From positions 1 to 51,505 of the forward strand of contig JAJFLR010000044.1 of NCBI GenBank assembly GCA_021772565.1: a DNA stretch of 51,505 nucleotides, in the 5' to 3' direction. The DNA is from Opitutales bacterium (GTDB taxonomy: Bacteria; Verrucomicrobiota; Verrucomicrobiia; Opitutales; JAJFLR01). Position numbers and translations under genes: made by a program. Every line of letters begins with the position of its first letter. The stretch's first letter is position 1. The notes beneath the pieces were generated by a model. The model ran no database searches and was not told the origin of the DNA. It worked only from the letters and a program-made list of their open reading frames with translations. Positions 33-7,892 of this stretch are shown piece after piece.

Positions 33-133
33 CGAACTTTAGCATGCTTAAGCATGCGGTCTTTTAGTCGCCTTTAGGCGAAATTGTGACTTTCAGTCAC
101 CTTACAACCCACCTCCTTTAGGAGGTCGGTTGT
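33..133. other. Run of four stem-loops (candidate IS200/IS605 end or structured RNA)
   Basis: Four hairpins follow one another with almost no spacer. They are GCATGCT/AGCATGC (42-57), TCGCC-TTTA-GGCGA (68-81), GTGAC-TTTCA-GTCAC (86-100) and a long one pairing 104-109 with 128-133 and 111-116 with 121-126 around a TTTA loop. The last has the form usual at the right end of IS200/IS605-family elements that carry tnpB, where the same DNA encodes an omega RNA. That link is inference: no tnpB lies inside the window, so any partner gene would be left of position 1. It could instead be an array of REP-like palindromes. Confidence 0.4.
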
Positions 134-380
134 GTTGAGTCATAGTTATATTTTATGTAGTTTATTTATACGTTAAAAATTAATTTTTCTCTATGCAAGA
201 TGTTGGATTAATTGTGAGCAATAAAGAATATGTTATTTACATTTAGTTCACATGAAAGTTTGATATCATTGTATTGGGTTAGTTTCTAGTAGTGGACTAA
301 GTTGTATAGGCGGTTCCAATGTTTAAACGTGATCATTCGACTTAAGATTTCACGATGATGCAAATTGTGGGTTCAACAAA

Positions 381-407
381 CGGATGCCTAGGGACAGGCA
401 TCCCTAC
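381..407. repeat. GTAGGG-type palindrome, copy a
   Basis: A perfect 8-bp stem pairs 382-389 with 396-403 around a six-base loop, and the unit ends in CCCTAC. The same sequence recurs at 7225-7251. It looks like a REP-type intergenic repeat. Confidence 0.75.
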
Positions 408-433
408 CCAACGATGTGAAAATTGGAAATGTG

Positions 434-461
434 GTAGGGACGGCTGTCCCTAGCCGTCCGT
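434..461. repeat. GTAGGG-type palindrome, copy b
   Basis: The unit begins GTAGGG. A perfect 8-bp stem pairs 438-445 with 452-459 around the loop GTCCCT. It is followed by CGTCTTGCGATTT, which also follows the expanded copy at 7106-7181 with small changes. Confidence 0.75.
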
Positions 462-524
462 CTTGCGATTTTGCAATGATGCAAATATTTGGATTCAAAA
501 AACTGATTAAGATTATGATCAGGA

Positions 525-2264
525 TCAGGATTTCTTACACCAAACTGACCATAACTGGCGATAAACTTTTTCCAAATTATTTGTAAATTTTGCAGCGTTA
601 TTTAGAGTGGATGATTTTACTTTTTGTCGTAGAACTGATCTCAACTCTGACAATTTCTCAGTGCTCATTGACCATTGTTTGGCTATCTGGATATACTCGT
701 CTTCAGATTTTGCGACAAAGTCTTCCAGTCCAATGCATTTTAAGATACTTGAACTCACTCTTGCTCGGTGGTGATCACCTTGCAATGTTATGACCGGTAC
801 GCCCATCCATAGGCTTTCGCAGGTGGTAATCGTTCCATGATACGGATAGGGATCAAGTGAGATATCCATTTGAGCGTATAAGCCTAAATGTTGCATCAAA
901 CTTCTTGTGTGAGACACTAACATTAAGCGCTCATGACTTATACCAAGATTTTCAAATATTTTTAAGCAATTTCGTTTTACAACGGTATCGATGAACGAGA
1001 GATTTTTGATGATTAATTTTGATTTTGGCACTTCTCTAAGAATTTCTGCCCAGAGCCTGAATGTTGTGTCAGTCAATTTACAATAGTTGTTGAATGATCC
1101 AAACGTAATAAAGTCATTCTTTATGCATGGCAGTTGTGAAACTTTTGGTGTCGGTCGTAATGGATCATAGCAGATAAAAATTTCAGGTAATCGTACTAGT
1201 TTCTCGCTAGCTAATGCATTGGCTCTAGCATTATCTGGATCAGTATTAGCATCAACCAGGCGATAATCCATCTCGGGAATGCCGGTAGTATTGGGATATC
1301 CCAACCAGGTTATTTGAACAGGTGCTGATCGGTTAGCAAAAATCTGCAATCTGTTTTTACCGGCGTGTCCATGTAGATCGACCAAAATATCAATTTCATC
1401 TTTTCGGATTTGTTCTTCGATTTTTTCATCGGTCCAAGCAGAAACTTCTGTCCAGTGATGAGTTAACTTTTTATGGTCAGCAGTAATGGCATCGTTATAA
1501 TCATTGTCATTATAGCAGAATATTTCGAAATCTTCTGTGTTGTGATTCTTCAACAACGGAATAGTCGTATACGAGCCGGAATGTAGCATGAAATGTGAGG
1601 ATACATAACCAATTCGAATGCGACGACTTTTATCAACTATATTATTAAAGCTAACATTTTTTATCTGTTTAGTATCCGTTATCGAATTTCCCCAGTCGAC
1701 AGATTCTTTATAAATTTTTTCCGGACCAACATCATCACGATAATTTTGCGCAAGGAAATAATTAGAATAGTAAAAATTTTCGGTATTTAGTTTTAGAGCT
1801 TTATTAAAATATTCTTCTGCTAAAATATGATCTCCGAGTTTGGCCAATGCGGTTGCACAATTAATGTAAGCAATGTCGTTTTGCGAATCGAGTTGGATTG
1901 CTTTTTTGTAGACAGTAATTGAATTGGTTATCAGATTTTGTTTAATCAAAGCTTCCCCTAAAAAATTATGTGCTTTAGAAGATTTTGGTTCTAATTGTGT
2001 CCACTTTTTAAAAGCCAAAATTGCTTGGCCTGATTGACGATCATTTAATAATAGATCACCAATTAATTCGAGTAGTTGAGGATTTTCTTTGTCGATTTTA
2101 TAAGCGTTATTTAACACTTTTAGTGCAGCCTTTACATCACCATGCTCAGCGTAAAATTTCCCGAGGTTAAAGTAAGGTTCAAAATCATTCGGCTGTGATT
2201 TTATAGCATCAATGTAAGATTGCTCAGTTTGCTTGAGGTCAATAATGTTTTTATTGGTATCCAT
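525..2264 (-). CDS. TPR-containing GT41 glycosyltransferase (OGT/SPINDLY-like), paralogue 1
   Basis: 579 aa. Roughly the first 180 residues are tetratricopeptide repeats with recurring LG-x-A-L and A-I-x-L patterns. The rest matches the GT41 catalytic region: VDLHGHAGKNR, then SAPVQITWLGYPNTTG and MDYRLVD, then FGSFNN, and near the C terminus a sugar-nucleotide-binding type segment (PYPYHGTITTCESLWMGVP). This family transfers a sugar, typically GlcNAc, to protein Ser/Thr. The acceptor cannot be read from sequence. There is no signal peptide, so it should be cytoplasmic. It lies downstream of a PEP-CTERM gene on the same strand, an arrangement repeated at 5300-7892. Between the two lie a terminator and a CACAGAT-type repeat 15 bp before the start codon. 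Confidence 0.9.
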   Translation of the reverse strand: MDTNKNIIDLKQTEQSYIDAIKSQPNDFEPYFNLGKFYAEHGDVKAALKVLNNAYKIDKENPQLLELIGDLLLNDRQSGQAILAFKKWTQLEPKSSKAHNFLGEALIKQNLITNSITVYKKAIQLDSQNDIAYINCATALAKLGDHILAEEYFNKALKLNTENFYYSNYFLAQNYRDDVGPEKIYKESVDWGNSITDTKQIKNVSFNNIVDKSRRIRIGYVSSHFMLHSGSYTTIPLLKNHNTEDFEIFCYNDNDYNDAITADHKKLTHHWTEVSAWTDEKIEEQIRKDEIDILVDLHGHAGKNRLQIFANRSAPVQITWLGYPNTTGIPEMDYRLVDANTDPDNARANALASEKLVRLPEIFICYDPLRPTPKVSQLPCIKNDFITFGSFNNYCKLTDTTFRLWAEILREVPKSKLIIKNLSFIDTVVKRNCLKIFENLGISHERLMLVSHTRSLMQHLGLYAQMDISLDPYPYHGTITTCESLWMGVPVITLQGDHHRARVSSSILKCIGLEDFVAKSEDEYIQIAKQWSMSTEKLSELRSVLRQKVKSSTLNNAAKFTNNLEKVYRQLWSVWCKKS

Positions 2265-2277
2265 TTTTTAATTTATA

Positions 2278-2302
2278 TATGGCCACTGATTGAACACAGA
2301 TG
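2278..2302. repeat. CACAGATTGAA-type repeat upstream of GT41 paralogue 1
   Basis: The unit reads ggccactgattgaacacag followed by atga. It sits about 15 bp upstream of the GT41 start codon. A longer version sits at the same distance from the start of the second GT41 gene (7052-7086), so it was probably part of the duplicated unit. Confidence 0.6.
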
Positions 2303-2404
2303 AGAAGAAGAGGCAAATTTGAAATTGGAAATTAGAAATTAGTAAGGAAGCATGAAGCTTCGGCAAAGACTCAGCCGAACGGACATATATCCCTGTCAAT
2401 ATCC

Positions 2405-2437
2405 AAAAAAAAGCCCCGAGGGAAATCTCGAGGCTTT
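2405..2437 (-). terminator. Rho-independent terminator of PEP-CTERM gene 1
   Basis: The stem pairs 2410-2420 with 2427-2437 with one mismatch. Read on the minus strand it is followed by a run of eight T (2405-2412 as A). It lies about 20 bp beyond the stop of the PEP-CTERM gene and before the downstream GT41 gene, so the two genes are probably not simply co-transcribed. Confidence 0.85.
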
Positions 2438-2458
2438 CAAAATAAATATGAAAAAAAT

Positions 2459-3064
2459 TTATGCAGTTTTCTTAATATTTCTTCTCTTGCGCAACGCTAC
2501 TAGTCCTGCTGCACCGGCTGCCATCATTACGACAGATTCTGCTGGTTCCGGGACTACTGTCTGCCCGGCATTAATAGCTTCACCGGCTGTTTGATTCCAG
2601 GCAAATTCAAATAGCGTTTTTACATTACCATTTCTTGAAACACGCGCCCAACCATAGTGGGTTTGACTACTTCTGGTAATTGAAAATCCCAAGTAGTCAG
2701 TTCCGGAATTAGTGATATGAGAATCAGTATTACTAAGTTGTTTAAATGTCAGGCTTCCATCAATCGTTTCACCACTGGCTAATATTTTAGAATCGCTTCC
2801 ACTGAAATAGGCAACTAAATTATCGGAATTATTACCATTTATTGACGTTGAGCCAAATCGTACATCATACGTTGTATCATTTCCTGATTTGTATGCACCT
2901 GTATCAAAATCAAATGATAAGTAGCCATATGGCGTAGTGGCTAATCCAGTTCCACCATTAACGGTTGTGTGGGAAATTGTCGCATCTGCCTGATGAACTA
3001 TTCCACCAATTATTCCAACTGATCCGGCTAATATAGTATAATTTTTTATTTTATTCTTATTCAT
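2459..3064 (-). CDS. PEP-CTERM sorting-tail exported protein 1
   Basis: 201 aa from the ATG at 3064. A longer frame exists up to 3142, but it runs through the IS hairpin and lacks a signal peptide at its start, so the internal Met is preferred. After MNKNKIK come a hydrophobic signal segment and QADA. The C terminus is the PEP-CTERM tripartite tail: VPEPA, a hydrophobic stretch rich in Ala and Gly, then RKRR. Such tails are recognised by exosortases in the inner membrane. The middle is Gly/Ser/Thr/Asn-rich with a YLGFSITR...THYGWARV segment also found in the second copy (7320-7892). Its function is unknown; surface or matrix location is inferred. The gene starts only about 17 bp from an IS200-like hairpin. 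Confidence 0.85.
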   Translation of the reverse strand: MNKNKIKNYTILAGSVGIIGGIVHQADATISHTTVNGGTGLATTPYGYLSFDFDTGAYKSGNDTTYDVRFGSTSINGNNSDNLVAYFSGSDSKILASGETIDGSLTFKQLSNTDSHITNSGTDYLGFSITRSSQTHYGWARVSRNGNVKTLFEFAWNQTAGEAINAGQTVVPEPAESVVMMAAGAAGLVALRKRRNIKKTA

Positions 3065-3081
3065 AGTTTTAACTTGTAATT

Positions 3082-3101
3082 CCCCGTGGCTTGCCACGAG
3101 G
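3082..3101. repeat. Left-end hairpin of the IS200-like element
   Basis: CCCCGTGGC-TT-GCCACGAGG pairs over nine positions with one mismatch (3084/3099). It is nearly identical to the hairpin at 3605-3624. IS200/IS605 elements have subterminal hairpins of this type that are recognised by the Y1 transposase. Confidence 0.8.
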
Positions 3102-3155
3102 AGCTGACTGAAAGGGAAAGTTTGAAAACCGCAGGTTTTCATTTAGGTTCTATGA

Positions 3156-3584
3156 GTGGATATAATCAGATCAAATCATTGTGTATATATTACTCATTAT
3201 CATATCGTATTTCCGGTGAAATATCGTAAGGCATTACTGAAGAAGGAAGTGAGAGATACGATACAAGAGATTGTGATGGAAATAGGCGAACGTTATAAAA
3301 TAGAATTTGAAAGGTTGGGCTGTGACAGGAATCATATACATATATTGTGTTCTTTTCATCCGAATTACAGTATAGGCGAGACGGTTAGGAAATTTGAAAG
3401 TCTTACAGCAAAGGAGTTATTCAAACGTATGCCCAAGTTAAAGAAAGAGCAATGGGGAGGAGAGTCATGGAGTGATGGCTATTATGCTGCGACAGTTGGA
3501 GAAGGTGGGAACTGGAATGTTGTTGAGCAGTATGTGAAAAATCAAGGGGTAGAGCTATCGCAAGTACAGCTTACATTATGGTAG
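3156..3584 (+). CDS. tnpA: IS200/IS605-family Y1 transposase TnpA
   Basis: 142 aa, the normal length for a Y1-type HUH transposase, with no sign of disruption. The N-terminal half carries THYHIVFPVKYR. The HUH metal-binding motif is HIHIL around residues 60-64, and the nucleophilic Tyr is in VEQYVKNQ near the C terminus. These enzymes excise and insert single-stranded DNA, guided by end hairpins, which are present at 3082-3101 and 3605-3624. The Y1_Tnp family also includes REP-associated transposases (RAYTs), but the length and hairpin ends fit IS200 better. Confidence 0.93.
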   Translation: MDIIRSNHCVYITHYHIVFPVKYRKALLKKEVRDTIQEIVMEIGERYKIEFERLGCDRNHIHILCSFHPNYSIGETVRKFESLTAKELFKRMPKLKKEQWGGESWSDGYYAATVGEGGNWNVVEQYVKNQGVELSQVQLTLW

Positions 3585-3604
3585 TGGGAAATTTATCTTT
3601 GATA

Positions 3605-3624
3605 CCCCGTGGCTTGCCACGGGG
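3605..3624. repeat. Right-end hairpin of the IS200-like element
   Basis: CCCCGTGGC-TT-GCCACGGGG is a perfect nine-pair stem, 20 bp past the transposase stop. It differs from the left hairpin at one base. Confidence 0.85.
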
Positions 3625-3691
3625 AGTTTCATTTTTCACTCTAATTTATACATCTCTGTTTTATTGACAAACTCTCGGCTTCGCAAAGACT

Positions 3692-5077
3692 TTGATTGTG
3701 CAGAGTGAAAAAACAGTTAGACTAATAATTGCCGGCGACATTTCGATAACCGTACCGGTATCGATTGAATTTGCTGTCACCTACATTTTAACAGAACAGC
3801 AAGATTGGTTTGAGGATGAAGTAAAATTTATCCGTCACCTTATTAAACCCGGCATGAAAGTCATTGATATAGGTGCTAATTACGGACAGTACACATTACC
3901 TATAGCTAAATCTGTTGGTGTATCGGGAAAAGTTTGGGCGTTTGAGCCGACGTCAACTACGGCTAAATGTCTGAAAGAAAGTATATCAGACAATGATTTT
4001 AGTAATGTCGAGTTGATACAGGCTGGTCTGTCAAATGGACTAGGTACAGCAAAGTTATCTACCAACGTGAACTCTGAGCTCAATAGCATAATGATAAAAA
4101 GTTCAGACAGTCATCAGTTTGAAGAAATTTCTCTAACAACGTTAGATTACTGCGGTGAAAAATACAACTGGAATGAGATAGATTTTATAAAACTGGATGC
4201 TGAAGGTGAAGAGCTGAACATTATTGAAAAGGGGAAAGAATTGCTCTCCTCCACATCTCCATTAATCATGTTTGAGATTAAGCAGGATGAAGATATTAAA
4301 TTGCCACTACAGCTTTTTGAGAAATTTAATAATCTAGGTTTTAAAAATTATCGTTTGATTCCCGGCCTCAATATATTAGTTCCGTTTGATCAAAATGAAC
4401 CGGTGGATAAATCATTATTGAATCTTTTTTGCTGTAAAGATGATAAGGCGGAAATTTTAGAGAGTGATGGCTTCTTAGTCGGTCAATGGGAAGATAAAAA
4501 ATCGGACAGTACTGATTTAACTAAAGAATATATAGGAAATTTACCATATGGAAAAATACTCTTTGAAGATAAACAAAAATCAATGGGAAATGAATCTAGT
4601 CAATATTTAGAGATTCTTAATTTATATATCTTATCTCAATCTGAAAAACTAAACAGTCAAGATCGAGTTAGCTGTTTGATGAGTGCTGTGGTTGGTGCTC
4701 AGTCTATGTTATCTAAAGGTGAGAATAACTTTGAGCGTTTGGTTACATTTTCCAGAATTTTTATAGATGCCGGAAAACGTGCTCTCGGTGTTAAAATTCT
4801 TTATTATATCATTAAGCATTTTGGATCAGTTAGTGCCCATAAATTCAACGAATTATTTTTACCGGCAGAAAAGCGTTATGAGGAAATAATATCTATTGAA
4901 AATATTTACCTATGGGCGTTGTCATCTGTAATTGAACAAGCAATTAAAAAGTGCTGTTATTCGGCATGCTATAATCCCCAGACGATCTTGCCTCTTTTTA
5001 AGCGTCTGGAAAAGCTGGGTTATATGAATGAGGAGATGCACAGACGTTATGAGTTATTGAAGCAGATTGTGGAGTGA
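3692..5077 (+). CDS. FkbM-family methyltransferase with long C-terminal extension
   Basis: 461 aa from a TTG; a GTG two codons on (3698) is equally possible, and no ATG follows the upstream in-frame stop at 3665. Residues about 45-240 are an FkbM-type SAM-dependent methyltransferase: VIDIGANYGQYTLP (SAM motif I), KVWAFEPTSTTAKCL, and DFIKLDAEGEELNII. FkbM enzymes O-methylate sugars and related hydroxyls. About 220 further residues, largely helical in composition, have no function I recognise. It lies between the two GT41 genes, so methylation of a glycan made by them is plausible but inferred. The rare start and the IS end about 70 bp upstream leave open that the original 5' end was lost. Confidence 0.8.
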   Translation: MIVQSEKTVRLIIAGDISITVPVSIEFAVTYILTEQQDWFEDEVKFIRHLIKPGMKVIDIGANYGQYTLPIAKSVGVSGKVWAFEPTSTTAKCLKESISDNDFSNVELIQAGLSNGLGTAKLSTNVNSELNSIMIKSSDSHQFEEISLTTLDYCGEKYNWNEIDFIKLDAEGEELNIIEKGKELLSSTSPLIMFEIKQDEDIKLPLQLFEKFNNLGFKNYRLIPGLNILVPFDQNEPVDKSLLNLFCCKDDKAEILESDGFLVGQWEDKKSDSTDLTKEYIGNLPYGKILFEDKQKSMGNESSQYLEILNLYILSQSEKLNSQDRVSCLMSAVVGAQSMLSKGENNFERLVTFSRIFIDAGKRALGVKILYYIIKHFGSVSAHKFNELFLPAEKRYEEIISIENIYLWALSSVIEQAIKKCCYSACYNPQTILPLFKRLEKLGYMNEEMHRRYELLKQIVE

Positions 5078-5084
5078 TTTTTTT

Positions 5085-5285
5085 TAGCCACGGATTAAAC
5101 GCGGATTAAACACGGATATATTATTAGCAGAGTGAAAATACAAAATCGATATTTTCCAATATAGTTAATCTTCAGTTAATTTTAGTGAATTTAAATTACT
5201 ATTTTGTTCGTCAACTAGTTCTAATATCAAATATTAAAAAATCTGTGTTTAATCTGTGTTCAATCTGTGTTCAATCTGTGGCTAA
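5085..5285. repeat. Inverted array of CACAGATTAAA units between convergent genes
   Basis: On the left (5085-5118) are three units of the form CACGGATTAAA. On the right (5241-5285) are four units in the opposite orientation, of the form CTGTGTTCAAT, and both arms carry TAGCCAC/GTGGCTA at their outer ends. About 120 bp of AT-rich spacer separates them. The arms could fold into a long hairpin and act as a bidirectional terminator for the convergent FkbM and GT41 genes. Related arrays lie at 2278-2302 and 7052-7086 and were not noticed elsewhere in the window. Confidence 0.75.
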
Positions 5286-5299
5286 TAATAATTTTATGA

Positions 5300-7036
5300 T
5301 TAAGAAATTTTACACCAATTCCTCCAAAGCTCGCGATAGACTTTCTCTAAATCTTTGGTAAATTGTGCTACGTTATTCAGCGGAGAATTTTTAACTTGTT
5401 CCCTCATCCCGTTACGCAACTTTGCAAGTTTGTCGATATTATCAGCCCATTGTTTGGCTATTGCGACATACTCTTCTTCATCTTTAGCAACAAATTCTTC
5501 TAGACCTGCAGCAGTAAGAACACTCGAGCAGATTCTGGCAGTATGGTGTTGGCCTTGCAGCGTAATTACGGGAACCCCCATCCATACACTTTCACAAGAT
5601 GTAATGGCTCCCTGATAGGGATAGGGATCAAGTCCGAGATCAACTTGTCCATACAAATTGAGATGCTGCATGAAACTTGCCGTGCTCGATTTTAAAAATA
5701 TGCGCTTTCGATCGATACCAAATTCTTCAAATCTATTTAAGCAAAGTTTTTGAATAACCGGATCGCCAAATGACTGATTCTTAAGTAGGAGTCTAGATTC
5801 TGGAACTGCTTTCAAAACATTCGACCATAGGCGCATTGTTGTATCAGTAATTTTGTTATAATTATTAAACGAACCAAATGTGAAAATTCCATTTTGTATA
5901 GTTGGGAGTTTGGAAACAGAAGGTGTCGGTCTCAACGGATCATAACAAAGCAGACAGTTTGGCATTCTAATTAAAATTTCACTGGCTTGTTTATTAAAAA
6001 AATCGGTATCCGGATCGGTCACATAATCGACAATGCGGTTGTCTATTGTTGGTAATCCTGTGGTAAACAGATGGCCGAGCCAGTTGATTTGAATTGGGGC
6101 TGATCGCATGGCAAAGAGTGACATACGGTTAACTCCACTGTGACCATGTAAATCAATTAAGATATCAATTTCATCCTCTTTAATTTTATCAGATAGTTTT
6201 TTTGCATCCCAACCTTCAGCTTCAATCCAGTTATTAATATATTTTTTATGTTCGACCGTTATGGCATCTGCATAGGAATCATCATTATAACAGAATATTT
6301 CAAAATTATCAATCGAATGATTTTTGAAAAGCGGAAGTGTTGTATAGGCGCCGGAGTGTAATTTGAAATGAGATGAGACGTACCCGACTTTTAGACGTTT
6401 GTTTGGATCTTTTTTATTGGAGAATTGGTAATTGTTATTAACTAATTTGGTAATTGATTTTCCCCAGGCTATGGACTCTTCATATATTTTTATCGGGTTC
6501 AATTTATCCTGATGGATAAGAGTAAAAAATAGATTGGACCAGAATTTATTTTTAGGATTCAGCGCAATTGCCTTTCGCATGTTTATTTCTGCTTCCTTGT
6601 GAAACCCTTGGAAGGACAATGCAATTGCCAGTTGCATATAGGCATCATCTAGTTTGTTGTTGAGCTTAATAGCTTTTTTGAAAACCGGAATCGATTCCGA
6701 GAACTGTTTTATTCGTGTATGGGCATGACCTAAAGTTATATGAGCACTGTCAGATTTAGGATCGAGCTCAGACCATTTTTGTAAATAAGATATCGCTAAT
6801 TTGGAACTATCCTCTTGCATGAGCAGCTGTCCCAATAATTTATTTATTTCTAGATAATCCTTATGGATCTTCGATGCCTTGAATAAGACTTGGATCGCTT
6901 GTTTGTTTTTGTCTTGTTTAAGATAAAGATTACAAAGATTAATAATGGCATCCAAGTTATTGGGATTTGAATTTATCTCTTTGATCAAAGATTGTTCATC
7001 TAGTGAGTGTAGGTCTGATTCTTTATTAGTTTCCAT
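5300..7036 (-). CDS. TPR-containing GT41 glycosyltransferase (OGT/SPINDLY-like), paralogue 2
   Basis: 578 aa, nearly the same length as the GT41 protein at 525-2264 and clearly its paralogue (shared FGSFNN, TDTT-RLW, PYPY-G-IT-CES-WMGVPVITLQG and a matching C-terminal end). The N-terminal part is TPR. The catalytic core has IDLHGHSGVNR and SAPIQINWLGHLFTTG, where copy 1 has the more usual WLGYPNTTG and MDYRLVD; here the latter reads IDNRIVD. These changes near the acceptor/donor site may mean a different specificity. It follows a second PEP-CTERM gene. CACAGAT-type repeats lie about 15 bp outside both its stop and its start, in inverted orientation. Confidence 0.9.
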   Translation of the reverse strand: METNKESDLHSLDEQSLIKEINSNPNNLDAIINLCNLYLKQDKNKQAIQVLFKASKIHKDYLEINKLLGQLLMQEDSSKLAISYLQKWSELDPKSDSAHITLGHAHTRIKQFSESIPVFKKAIKLNNKLDDAYMQLAIALSFQGFHKEAEINMRKAIALNPKNKFWSNLFFTLIHQDKLNPIKIYEESIAWGKSITKLVNNNYQFSNKKDPNKRLKVGYVSSHFKLHSGAYTTLPLFKNHSIDNFEIFCYNDDSYADAITVEHKKYINNWIEAEGWDAKKLSDKIKEDEIDILIDLHGHSGVNRMSLFAMRSAPIQINWLGHLFTTGLPTIDNRIVDYVTDPDTDFFNKQASEILIRMPNCLLCYDPLRPTPSVSKLPTIQNGIFTFGSFNNYNKITDTTMRLWSNVLKAVPESRLLLKNQSFGDPVIQKLCLNRFEEFGIDRKRIFLKSSTASFMQHLNLYGQVDLGLDPYPYQGAITSCESVWMGVPVITLQGQHHTARICSSVLTAAGLEEFVAKDEEEYVAIAKQWADNIDKLAKLRNGMREQVKNSPLNNVAQFTKDLEKVYRELWRNWCKIS

Positions 7037-7051
7037 TTATGTTGTTATTAT

Positions 7052-7086
7052 ATGGCCACAGATGGAACACAGATCAAACACAGATT
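7052..7086. repeat. CACAGAT-type repeat upstream of GT41 paralogue 2
   Basis: Three units (CACAGATGGAA, CACAGATCAAA, CACAGAT) follow TGGC. The array starts 16 bp before the GT41 start codon and is inverted relative to the array at 5241-5285 on the other side of the gene. Confidence 0.7.
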
Positions 7087-7105
7087 TTATAATTAATAAA
7101 TTTGG

Positions 7106-7181
7106 GTAGGGATGGCTGTCCGTTCGGCTGAGACCTCGGCGTGAGCTCTGTCGAACGCTCAGGTCGAAGCCCTAGCCGTCC
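7106..7181. repeat. GTAGGG-type palindrome split by a second repeat
   Basis: This is a diverged copy of the palindrome at 434-461 whose loop is expanded. GTAGGGATGGCTGTCC and CTAGCCGTCC are separated by about 49 bp (7122-7170) that contains its own GTTCG/CGAAC arms and GCTGAGACCTCGGC. A nested insertion of one repeat family into another is the simplest reading. Confidence 0.6.
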
Positions 7182-7224
7182 GTCTTACGATTTCACATAT
7201 ACGCAAATATCCGTGACAAACCCA

Positions 7225-7251
7225 CGGATGCCTAGGGACAGGCATCCCTAC
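7225..7251. repeat. GTAGGG-type palindrome, copy of 381-407
   Basis: The core is identical to 381-407. An 8-bp stem pairs 7226-7233 with 7240-7247, and the unit ends CCCTAC. Confidence 0.75.
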
Positions 7252-7260
7252 CTTATAATC

Positions 7261-7293
7261 AAAAAAAGCCTCGGAGAATAAACCGAGGCTTTT
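7261..7293 (-). terminator. Rho-independent terminator of PEP-CTERM gene 2
   Basis: A perfect 11-bp stem pairs 7264-7274 with 7283-7293, with a loop of eight. Read on the minus strand it is followed by a T run (A at 7261-7267). It lies just past the PEP-CTERM stop, as at the first copy. Confidence 0.88.
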
Positions 7294-7319
7294 AACAAGA
7301 ACTAAATTTAAATTTTCAG

Positions 7320-7892
7320 TTATACGGATTTTTTTGCTTTTCTTCTTTTACGAAGAGCTGTCAGTCCGGCAGCTCCAGCTGCTAAAGCAAATACTGTGTG
7401 CGCAGGCTCTGGTACAGCTGTTGTTTGGCCAGCAGTGAGTGTGGCGCCAGCAGAATTGTCCCATGCAAATTCAAATACTGTGACTATGCCACTTTCACGT
7501 TTTACTCTAACCCAGCCATAATGGGTATTTCCGCTGCGGATGAGTTCGACTCCAAGATAATCATTCCCGGAAGTACCGACAACAGTTGCACCTTGATTGG
7601 ATGTAAAAGTTAAATTTCCATCAACTGTTTGTCCACTAGTTAATGCTGTATTCGACGTCTCATTGACATTAAAATTGCCAAAGAATGATGATCCAAACCG
7701 AAAGTCATAAGAAGTATTATAACTGGAAATTGCATTTCCGGTATCAAAATCAAATGATATAGTTCCATAAAAGGAACTAGAAATATTTGGACTCACATGA
7801 ACAATTATAGCATCTGCTTGTTGTGCGATGCCCCCCATTATGCCGATAGAACCTGCCAATAATCCGTAATTTGATAATTTTTTTGTTTTCAT
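7320..7892 (-). CDS. PEP-CTERM sorting-tail exported protein 2
   Basis: 190 aa, paralogous to the protein at 2459-3064. The N terminus is Lys-rich followed by a hydrophobic segment and QADA, as in copy 1. Shared internal segments are GTISFDFDTG, DYLGVELIRSGNTHYGWVRVKR and FEFAWDNSAG. The C-terminal tail is VPEPA, then an Ala/Gly/Leu hydrophobic stretch, then RKRRKAKK, the PEP-CTERM signal for exosortase processing. Its own function is unknown. No exosortase gene is in the window. A hairpin terminator follows, and then the second GT41 gene. Confidence 0.87.
   Translation of the reverse strand: MKTKKLSNYGLLAGSIGIMGGIAQQADAIIVHVSPNISSSFYGTISFDFDTGNAISSYNTSYDFRFGSSFFGNFNVNETSNTALTSGQTVDGNLTFTSNQGATVVGTSGNDYLGVELIRSGNTHYGWVRVKRESGIVTVFEFAWDNSAGATLTAGQTTAVPEPAHTVFALAAGAAGLTALRKRRKAKKSV

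Follow-up and report, generated by a model that had tools for sequence, protein, structure and literature searches.

Organisation of the locus

The window, the whole stretch of 51,505 nucleotides that was analysed, carries between positions 525 and 7892 two genes for PEP-CTERM proteins (PEP1 and PEP2) and two for TPR-GT41 glycosyltransferases (GT41-1 and GT41-2; Table 1). The order PEP-CTERM gene, terminator, TPR-GT41 gene occurs twice on the minus strand, and a plus-strand gene for an FkbM-family methyltransferase sits between the two PEP-GT41 units. Every element named in a preliminary description of this DNA is present where that description placed it, and the hairpin terminators proposed to follow each PEP-CTERM gene are convincing, as both fold much better than shuffled sequences. 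The transposase gene between PEP1 and the FkbM gene had been overlooked. It is flanked by hairpins at 3079–3103 and 3602–3626, the nearer of which stops some 15 bp short of the PEP1 start codon. The element probably inserted next to PEP1, on its upstream side, and lies outside the unit; given the closeness of the hairpin to the start codon it may have changed PEP1 expression.

Table 1. Features of the PEP-CTERM/GT41 locus, with positions in the window.
Feature	Position	Strand	Properties
TPR-GT41 glycosyltransferase 1 (GT41-1)	525–2264	−	579 aa; PF13844 E 2.6e-55 and TPR matches; SPINDLY-like, signal peptide not seen
CACAGAT-type repeat, decayed	2276–2301	+	repeat search; dispersed in genome, not unit-specific
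Intrinsic terminator PEP1/GT41-1	2409–2438	−	fold z −4.1
PEP-CTERM protein 1 (PEP1)	2459–3064	−	201 aa; predicted to be exported and to partner GT41-1; TIGR02595 16.6 bits (20.5 bits in genome-wide search)
IS200/IS605-type transposase TnpA	3156–3584	+	PF01797 E 2.4e-33; NF033573 E 2.6e-35; repeat D17
FkbM-family methyltransferase	3692–5077	+	461 aa; TIGR01444 E 7.3e-26
TPR-GT41 glycosyltransferase 2 (GT41-2)	5300–7036	−	578 aa; PF13844 E 4.6e-52
CACAGAT-type repeat	7056–7085	+	repeat search; dispersed
Intrinsic terminator PEP2/GT41-2	7264–7293	−	fold z −5.8
PEP-CTERM protein 2 (PEP2)	7320–7892	−	190 aa; predicted to be exported and to partner GT41-2; TIGR02595 14.4 bits (16.2 bits in genome-wide search)

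The locus had been described as a duplicated unit of repeated order and spacing. The order is indeed the same in both copies, though the distance between the PEP-CTERM and GT41 genes is 194 bp in one and 283 bp in the other. The trees are compatible with a duplication of the PEP-GT41 pair, although the history is complicated by a third PEP copy that has no GT41 gene. The CACAGAT-type repeat, which had been counted as part of the unit, occurs well above chance (seven matches against 0.24 expected) but is dispersed, lying also beyond the 3′ ends of GT41-2 and FkbM and at other places in the genome, and is ruled out as a component of the unit.

The genome encodes two GT41 enzymes, both in the window and each directly downstream of a gene of the PEP1/PEP2 subfamily, together with about 50–60 PEP-CTERM proteins and six matches over the cut-off to the exosortase family (PF09721). 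Eight of the PEP-CTERM genes form a one-strand array elsewhere (L136, G000:C39, 4893–11864).

The PEP-CTERM proteins form a distinct subfamily

PEP1 and PEP2 are 49–51% identical. Both have a signal-like N-terminus and, at the C-terminus, the PEP motif, hydrophobic stretch and basic tail of PEP-CTERM proteins, with TIGR02595 scores at or near the cut-off of 16 bits. Their combined serine and threonine content is high, at the 96th (PEP1) and 89th (PEP2) percentile of the genome's other PEP-CTERM proteins and so inside the range of these. A fold search with the predicted PEP structure, a low-confidence model, returned no match.

A third close paralogue, PEP3, is encoded on contig C48 and is 57% identical to PEP1, closer than PEP2 is. 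The three proteins stand well apart from the other PEP-CTERM proteins of the genome (E 1e-74, the next being 6e-9). Downstream of PEP3 come a terminator, a degenerate repeat and a TPR enzyme of another kind, a 910-aa phosphodiesterase-TPR-sulfotransferase protein (129–3776 for the whole arrangement; L074, G000:C48), with no GT41 gene at the locus; this enzyme is perhaps a different modifying partner for PEP3.

The GT41 enzymes resemble SPINDLY

GT41-1 and GT41-2 are 52% identical, and the architecture of N-terminal TPRs followed by a GT41 domain is confirmed by PF13844, the TPR matches and the predicted fold. The predicted structure of GT41-1 (pLDDT 94.9) has Arabidopsis SPINDLY (SPY) as its top PDB matches, with TM scores of 0.88–0.91, and a GT41 profile run against the PDB also places Arabidopsis SPINDLY first (E 1.6e-151), ahead of the Thermobaculum and human OGT (hOGT) enzymes. 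By sequence and modelled fold the window enzymes thus appear to resemble SPINDLY, an O-fucosyltransferase, more closely than O-GlcNAc transferase. Against the model for HMW1C-like N-glycosyltransferases (NF049992), GT41-1 scored 36.8 bits, the cut-off being 1000, and no match was listed for GT41-2.

The donor site was compared over the two window enzymes and seven relatives that likewise follow a PEP-CTERM gene, six of which form a single clade, using the residue roles described for SPY and OGT (PMC10027727). The equivalents of His495 and Lys665 are retained in all nine and that of Lys689 in eight, while the uridine-contacting arginine of hOGT (Arg904) has an equivalent in none. The window enzymes and the clade of six retain equivalents of the catalytic histidine, the phosphate-binding lysine and the ribose-binding glutamate. 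At the donor triad (Lys689/Ala731/Tyr744 in SPY, L/R/C in hOGT) the window enzymes read K-L-Y, the clade of six K-[LTAM]-[CVL] and the enzyme of L130, which has lost several donor-site residues, A-I-F; an intermediate prokaryotic GT41 group with mixed triads has been reported (PMC10027727). The retention of Lys689 in most of the enzymes and the absence of the hOGT arginine favour a GDP-sugar over UDP-GlcNAc. One match over the cut-off to GDP-mannose 4,6-dehydratase was found in the genome, which makes GDP-fucose possible, and we infer that GDP-fucose is the leading candidate donor for the window enzymes. However, the equivalent of Tyr744, which contacts the sugar, is a tyrosine only in the window pair and cysteine, valine or leucine in the clade of six, and that of Thr748 is an isoleucine in the window enzymes; together with the losses in L130 this variation suggests that donor and sugar may differ.

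The gene pair recurs in other genomes

The preliminary description had proposed a genome-wide test of whether GT41 and PEP-CTERM genes are neighbours more often than expected. For a first sample, the two window enzymes were made into a profile, GT41 relatives were collected with it across 286 genomes of the class, and their surroundings were fetched regardless of neighbours. Upstream sequence of 1 kb or more was available for 60 GT41 ORFs, and for three of them (L115, L130, L150) the first 1 kb upstream holds a PEP-CTERM gene on the same strand, where 0.18 would be expected from the mean PEP density in 18 of the class genomes (P 0.0008) and 0.66 from the highest density (P 0.03); counted as two lineages, P is 0.014–0.14. 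Control stretches contained two PEP-CTERM genes in 702 kb. A second sample, from 372 genomes of the order, gave 3/40 (L243, L244, L245), although this sample was not blind, as these three loci were fetched with their PEP match known; by GT41 match, too, all three rank in the top ten. Pooling both samples, a PEP-CTERM gene lies upstream of 6/100 GT41s and downstream of 1/108. A general association is ruled out, 94 of the 100 having no PEP-CTERM gene upstream, and what the test supports is an association of one PEP subfamily with a minority of GT41s.

For a held-out test from the other side, a profile was built from six PEP proteins of four genomes after trimming their PEP-CTERM tails and was applied to the 372 genomes of the order. 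It gave five new strong matches (G332, G390, G383 and two in G382; E 1e-40 to 1e-16), all five upstream of a GT41 gene; in G390 the pair is divided over two contig ends (L246/L247). At the weaker matches (E 1e-10 to 6e-7) GT41 was absent within the fetched stretch. A PEP search of 387 genomes of the phylum yielded no additional pair, the new matches having no GT41 within about 1.5 kb, and the GT41 profile gave only three distant loci in the named genomes. Four further GT41s from the same genomes as the pairs (L114, L149, L257, L261) have no PEP gene upstream.

Outside the source genome, the pair is therefore present in seven genomes from three further families, making nine GT41s in eight genomes and four families with the window, all of one order; the family of the source genome has no second genome. 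In L115, L150 and L243 the gap between the genes is 0–6 bp, and in L130 a terminator-like hairpin lies between them as in the window, though the partial stretch that was folded gave no significant result. The flanking genes vary from locus to locus. A conserved, oriented PEP-to-GT41 gene pair involving one PEP subfamily is thus well supported, and the earlier suggestion of a link between each GT41 and the PEP-CTERM protein encoded beside it gains comparative support from its recurrence among unrelated flanks. PEP proteins of L115, L150, L243, L244 and L247 share a conserved N-terminal extension before the signal-like segment, resembling 'Y[RK][DE]RI' with a basic stretch, which is absent from the window proteins.

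No FkbM gene was recognised among the genes flanking the other pairs. It is accordingly ruled out as a conserved third gene, and the methylation that had been proposed to follow glycosylation is left unsupported; with only four FkbM genes in the genome, its position here may be non-random. In L244 (8778–9431) and L245 (8130–8879) an opposite-strand ORF lies between PEP and GT41. These two ORFs are 52% identical to one another; searches of Pfam and the PDB gave no match, and a relationship to FkbM could not be detected. By eye they have a methyltransferase-like appearance.

In a separate GT41 clade (L117, L131, L132 and L141; n = 4, SH-aLRT 100) each gene is preceded on the same strand, at 9–82 bp, by one for a Thr/Ser/Ala-rich protein of short 'LTTTQIxAL'-type repeats. 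These proteins have 2453–2723 aa in three loci, the L131 copy ending at a contig end; that of L117 is 33% Ser+Thr, and the two that were searched gave no NCBIfam match. The donor triad of these enzymes, L-R-Y, differs from those of the PEP-paired enzymes, and this is possibly a second kind of GT41-substrate pair.

Interpretation of the pair

On balance the arrangement would seem to reflect a dedicated enzyme and substrate, the GT41 acting in the cytoplasm to glycosylate the neighbouring PEP-CTERM protein ahead of its export by Sec, and this is the reading we favour with moderate confidence. The GT41 proteins begin with TPRs and no signal peptide is seen, so they would act in the cytoplasm. A soluble SPINDLY-like enzyme would bind the neighbouring protein and attach single sugars, presumably from a GDP-sugar donor, to its serine and threonine residues before export; an exosortase would then process the PEP-CTERM tail and the glycoprotein would reach the cell surface or matrix. 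We infer each part of this scheme, the neighbour as substrate, the linkage, the donor and the timing, from the genes and their relatives. The most specific version is put forward tentatively: a bacterial SPINDLY-type enzyme would serve a single dedicated PEP-CTERM protein, adding O-fucose, or a different sugar from a GDP-linked donor, while that protein is still in the cytoplasm and has yet to pass Sec and the exosortase. This version is rather doubtful as a whole. The terminator separating the genes in the window is a point against a dedicated pair; it may mean that much PEP protein is made and little enzyme.

It is unlikely, though it deserves weight, that the GT41s act more broadly, on a wide set of exported proteins among which are further PEP-CTERM proteins, so that the neighbour would be one target among several. 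The genome has just two GT41 genes for all its PEP-CTERM genes, and TPR-GT41s such as SPY act on varied proteins (PMC10027727), but the neighbour always belongs to one subfamily distinct from the genome's other PEP-CTERM proteins, and two diverged GT41s each with their own PEP copy suggest specialisation.

The trees bear on a second alternative, that PEP and GT41 were inherited or moved jointly within one order with no functional link. GT41-1 and GT41-2 are sisters (SH-aLRT 100), the clade of six contains no unpaired members (SH-aLRT 100) and the L130 enzyme lies on a long branch. A single origin of all nine is not rejected (AU p 0.75), and the tree uniting them has a likelihood above that of the free quick tree, so the nine pairs must not be counted as independent cases. 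PEP and GT41 distances correlate (r 0.92), which shared descent alone could produce. Such hitch-hiking would also fit the confinement of the pairs to one order and the occurrence of PEP3 without a GT41. It nevertheless seems improbable to us, since the pair has been retained among unrelated flanks at 29–39% GT41 identity between lineages, the genes abut in three genomes and PEP genes lie upstream more often than downstream. The argument for pairing, as we read the sequences, rests on this retention over deep divergence in changing surroundings. That the GT41 serves mainly to chaperone or regulate the PEP protein through its TPRs, glycosylation being secondary or absent, is very improbable: a chaperone role has been discussed for HMW1C (PMC3983070) and would suit the donor-site losses of L130, but the window enzymes and the clade of six keep the catalytic, phosphate-binding and ribose-binding residues.

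For bacterial TPR-GT41 enzymes, few substrates are known to us. A search of the open literature found no paper connecting GT41 enzymes with particular PEP-CTERM proteins. The conserved pairing points to a candidate substrate for one particular enzyme, and two genes make both questions testable, the substrates of TPR-GT41 enzymes and the glycosylation of PEP-CTERM proteins, the latter suspected since 2006 (PMC1569441).

Comparison with known systems

The proposed partners carry a PEP-CTERM tail and the genome encodes exosortases, as in the PEP-CTERM/exosortase system. Haft et al. (2006; PMC1569441) took the Ser/Thr/Asn enrichment of PEP-CTERM proteins as suggestive of glycosylation and mentioned OGT in discussing the TPR protein PrsT; their passages on these points, unlike the present locus, link no GT41 gene to an individual PEP-CTERM protein. 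Arabidopsis SPINDLY shares with the window enzymes the TPR and GT41 architecture, its place as top PDB match by profile and fold, and the guanosine-contacting lysine; however, it is a nucleocytoplasmic regulator with many targets, its Ala731 is replaced by leucine in the window enzymes, and Tyr744 is variable in the other pairs. HMW1C of Haemophilus influenzae glycosylates HMW1 in the cytoplasm ahead of Sec export (PMC3983070). HMW1C adds hexoses to asparagine and HMW1 uses two-partner secretion, whereas the window enzyme is of the TPR/SPY type and its partner a PEP-CTERM protein; what the two systems would share, judged here from the genes, is a GT41 enzyme devoted to one exported protein, which it modifies in the cytoplasm before Sec takes over.
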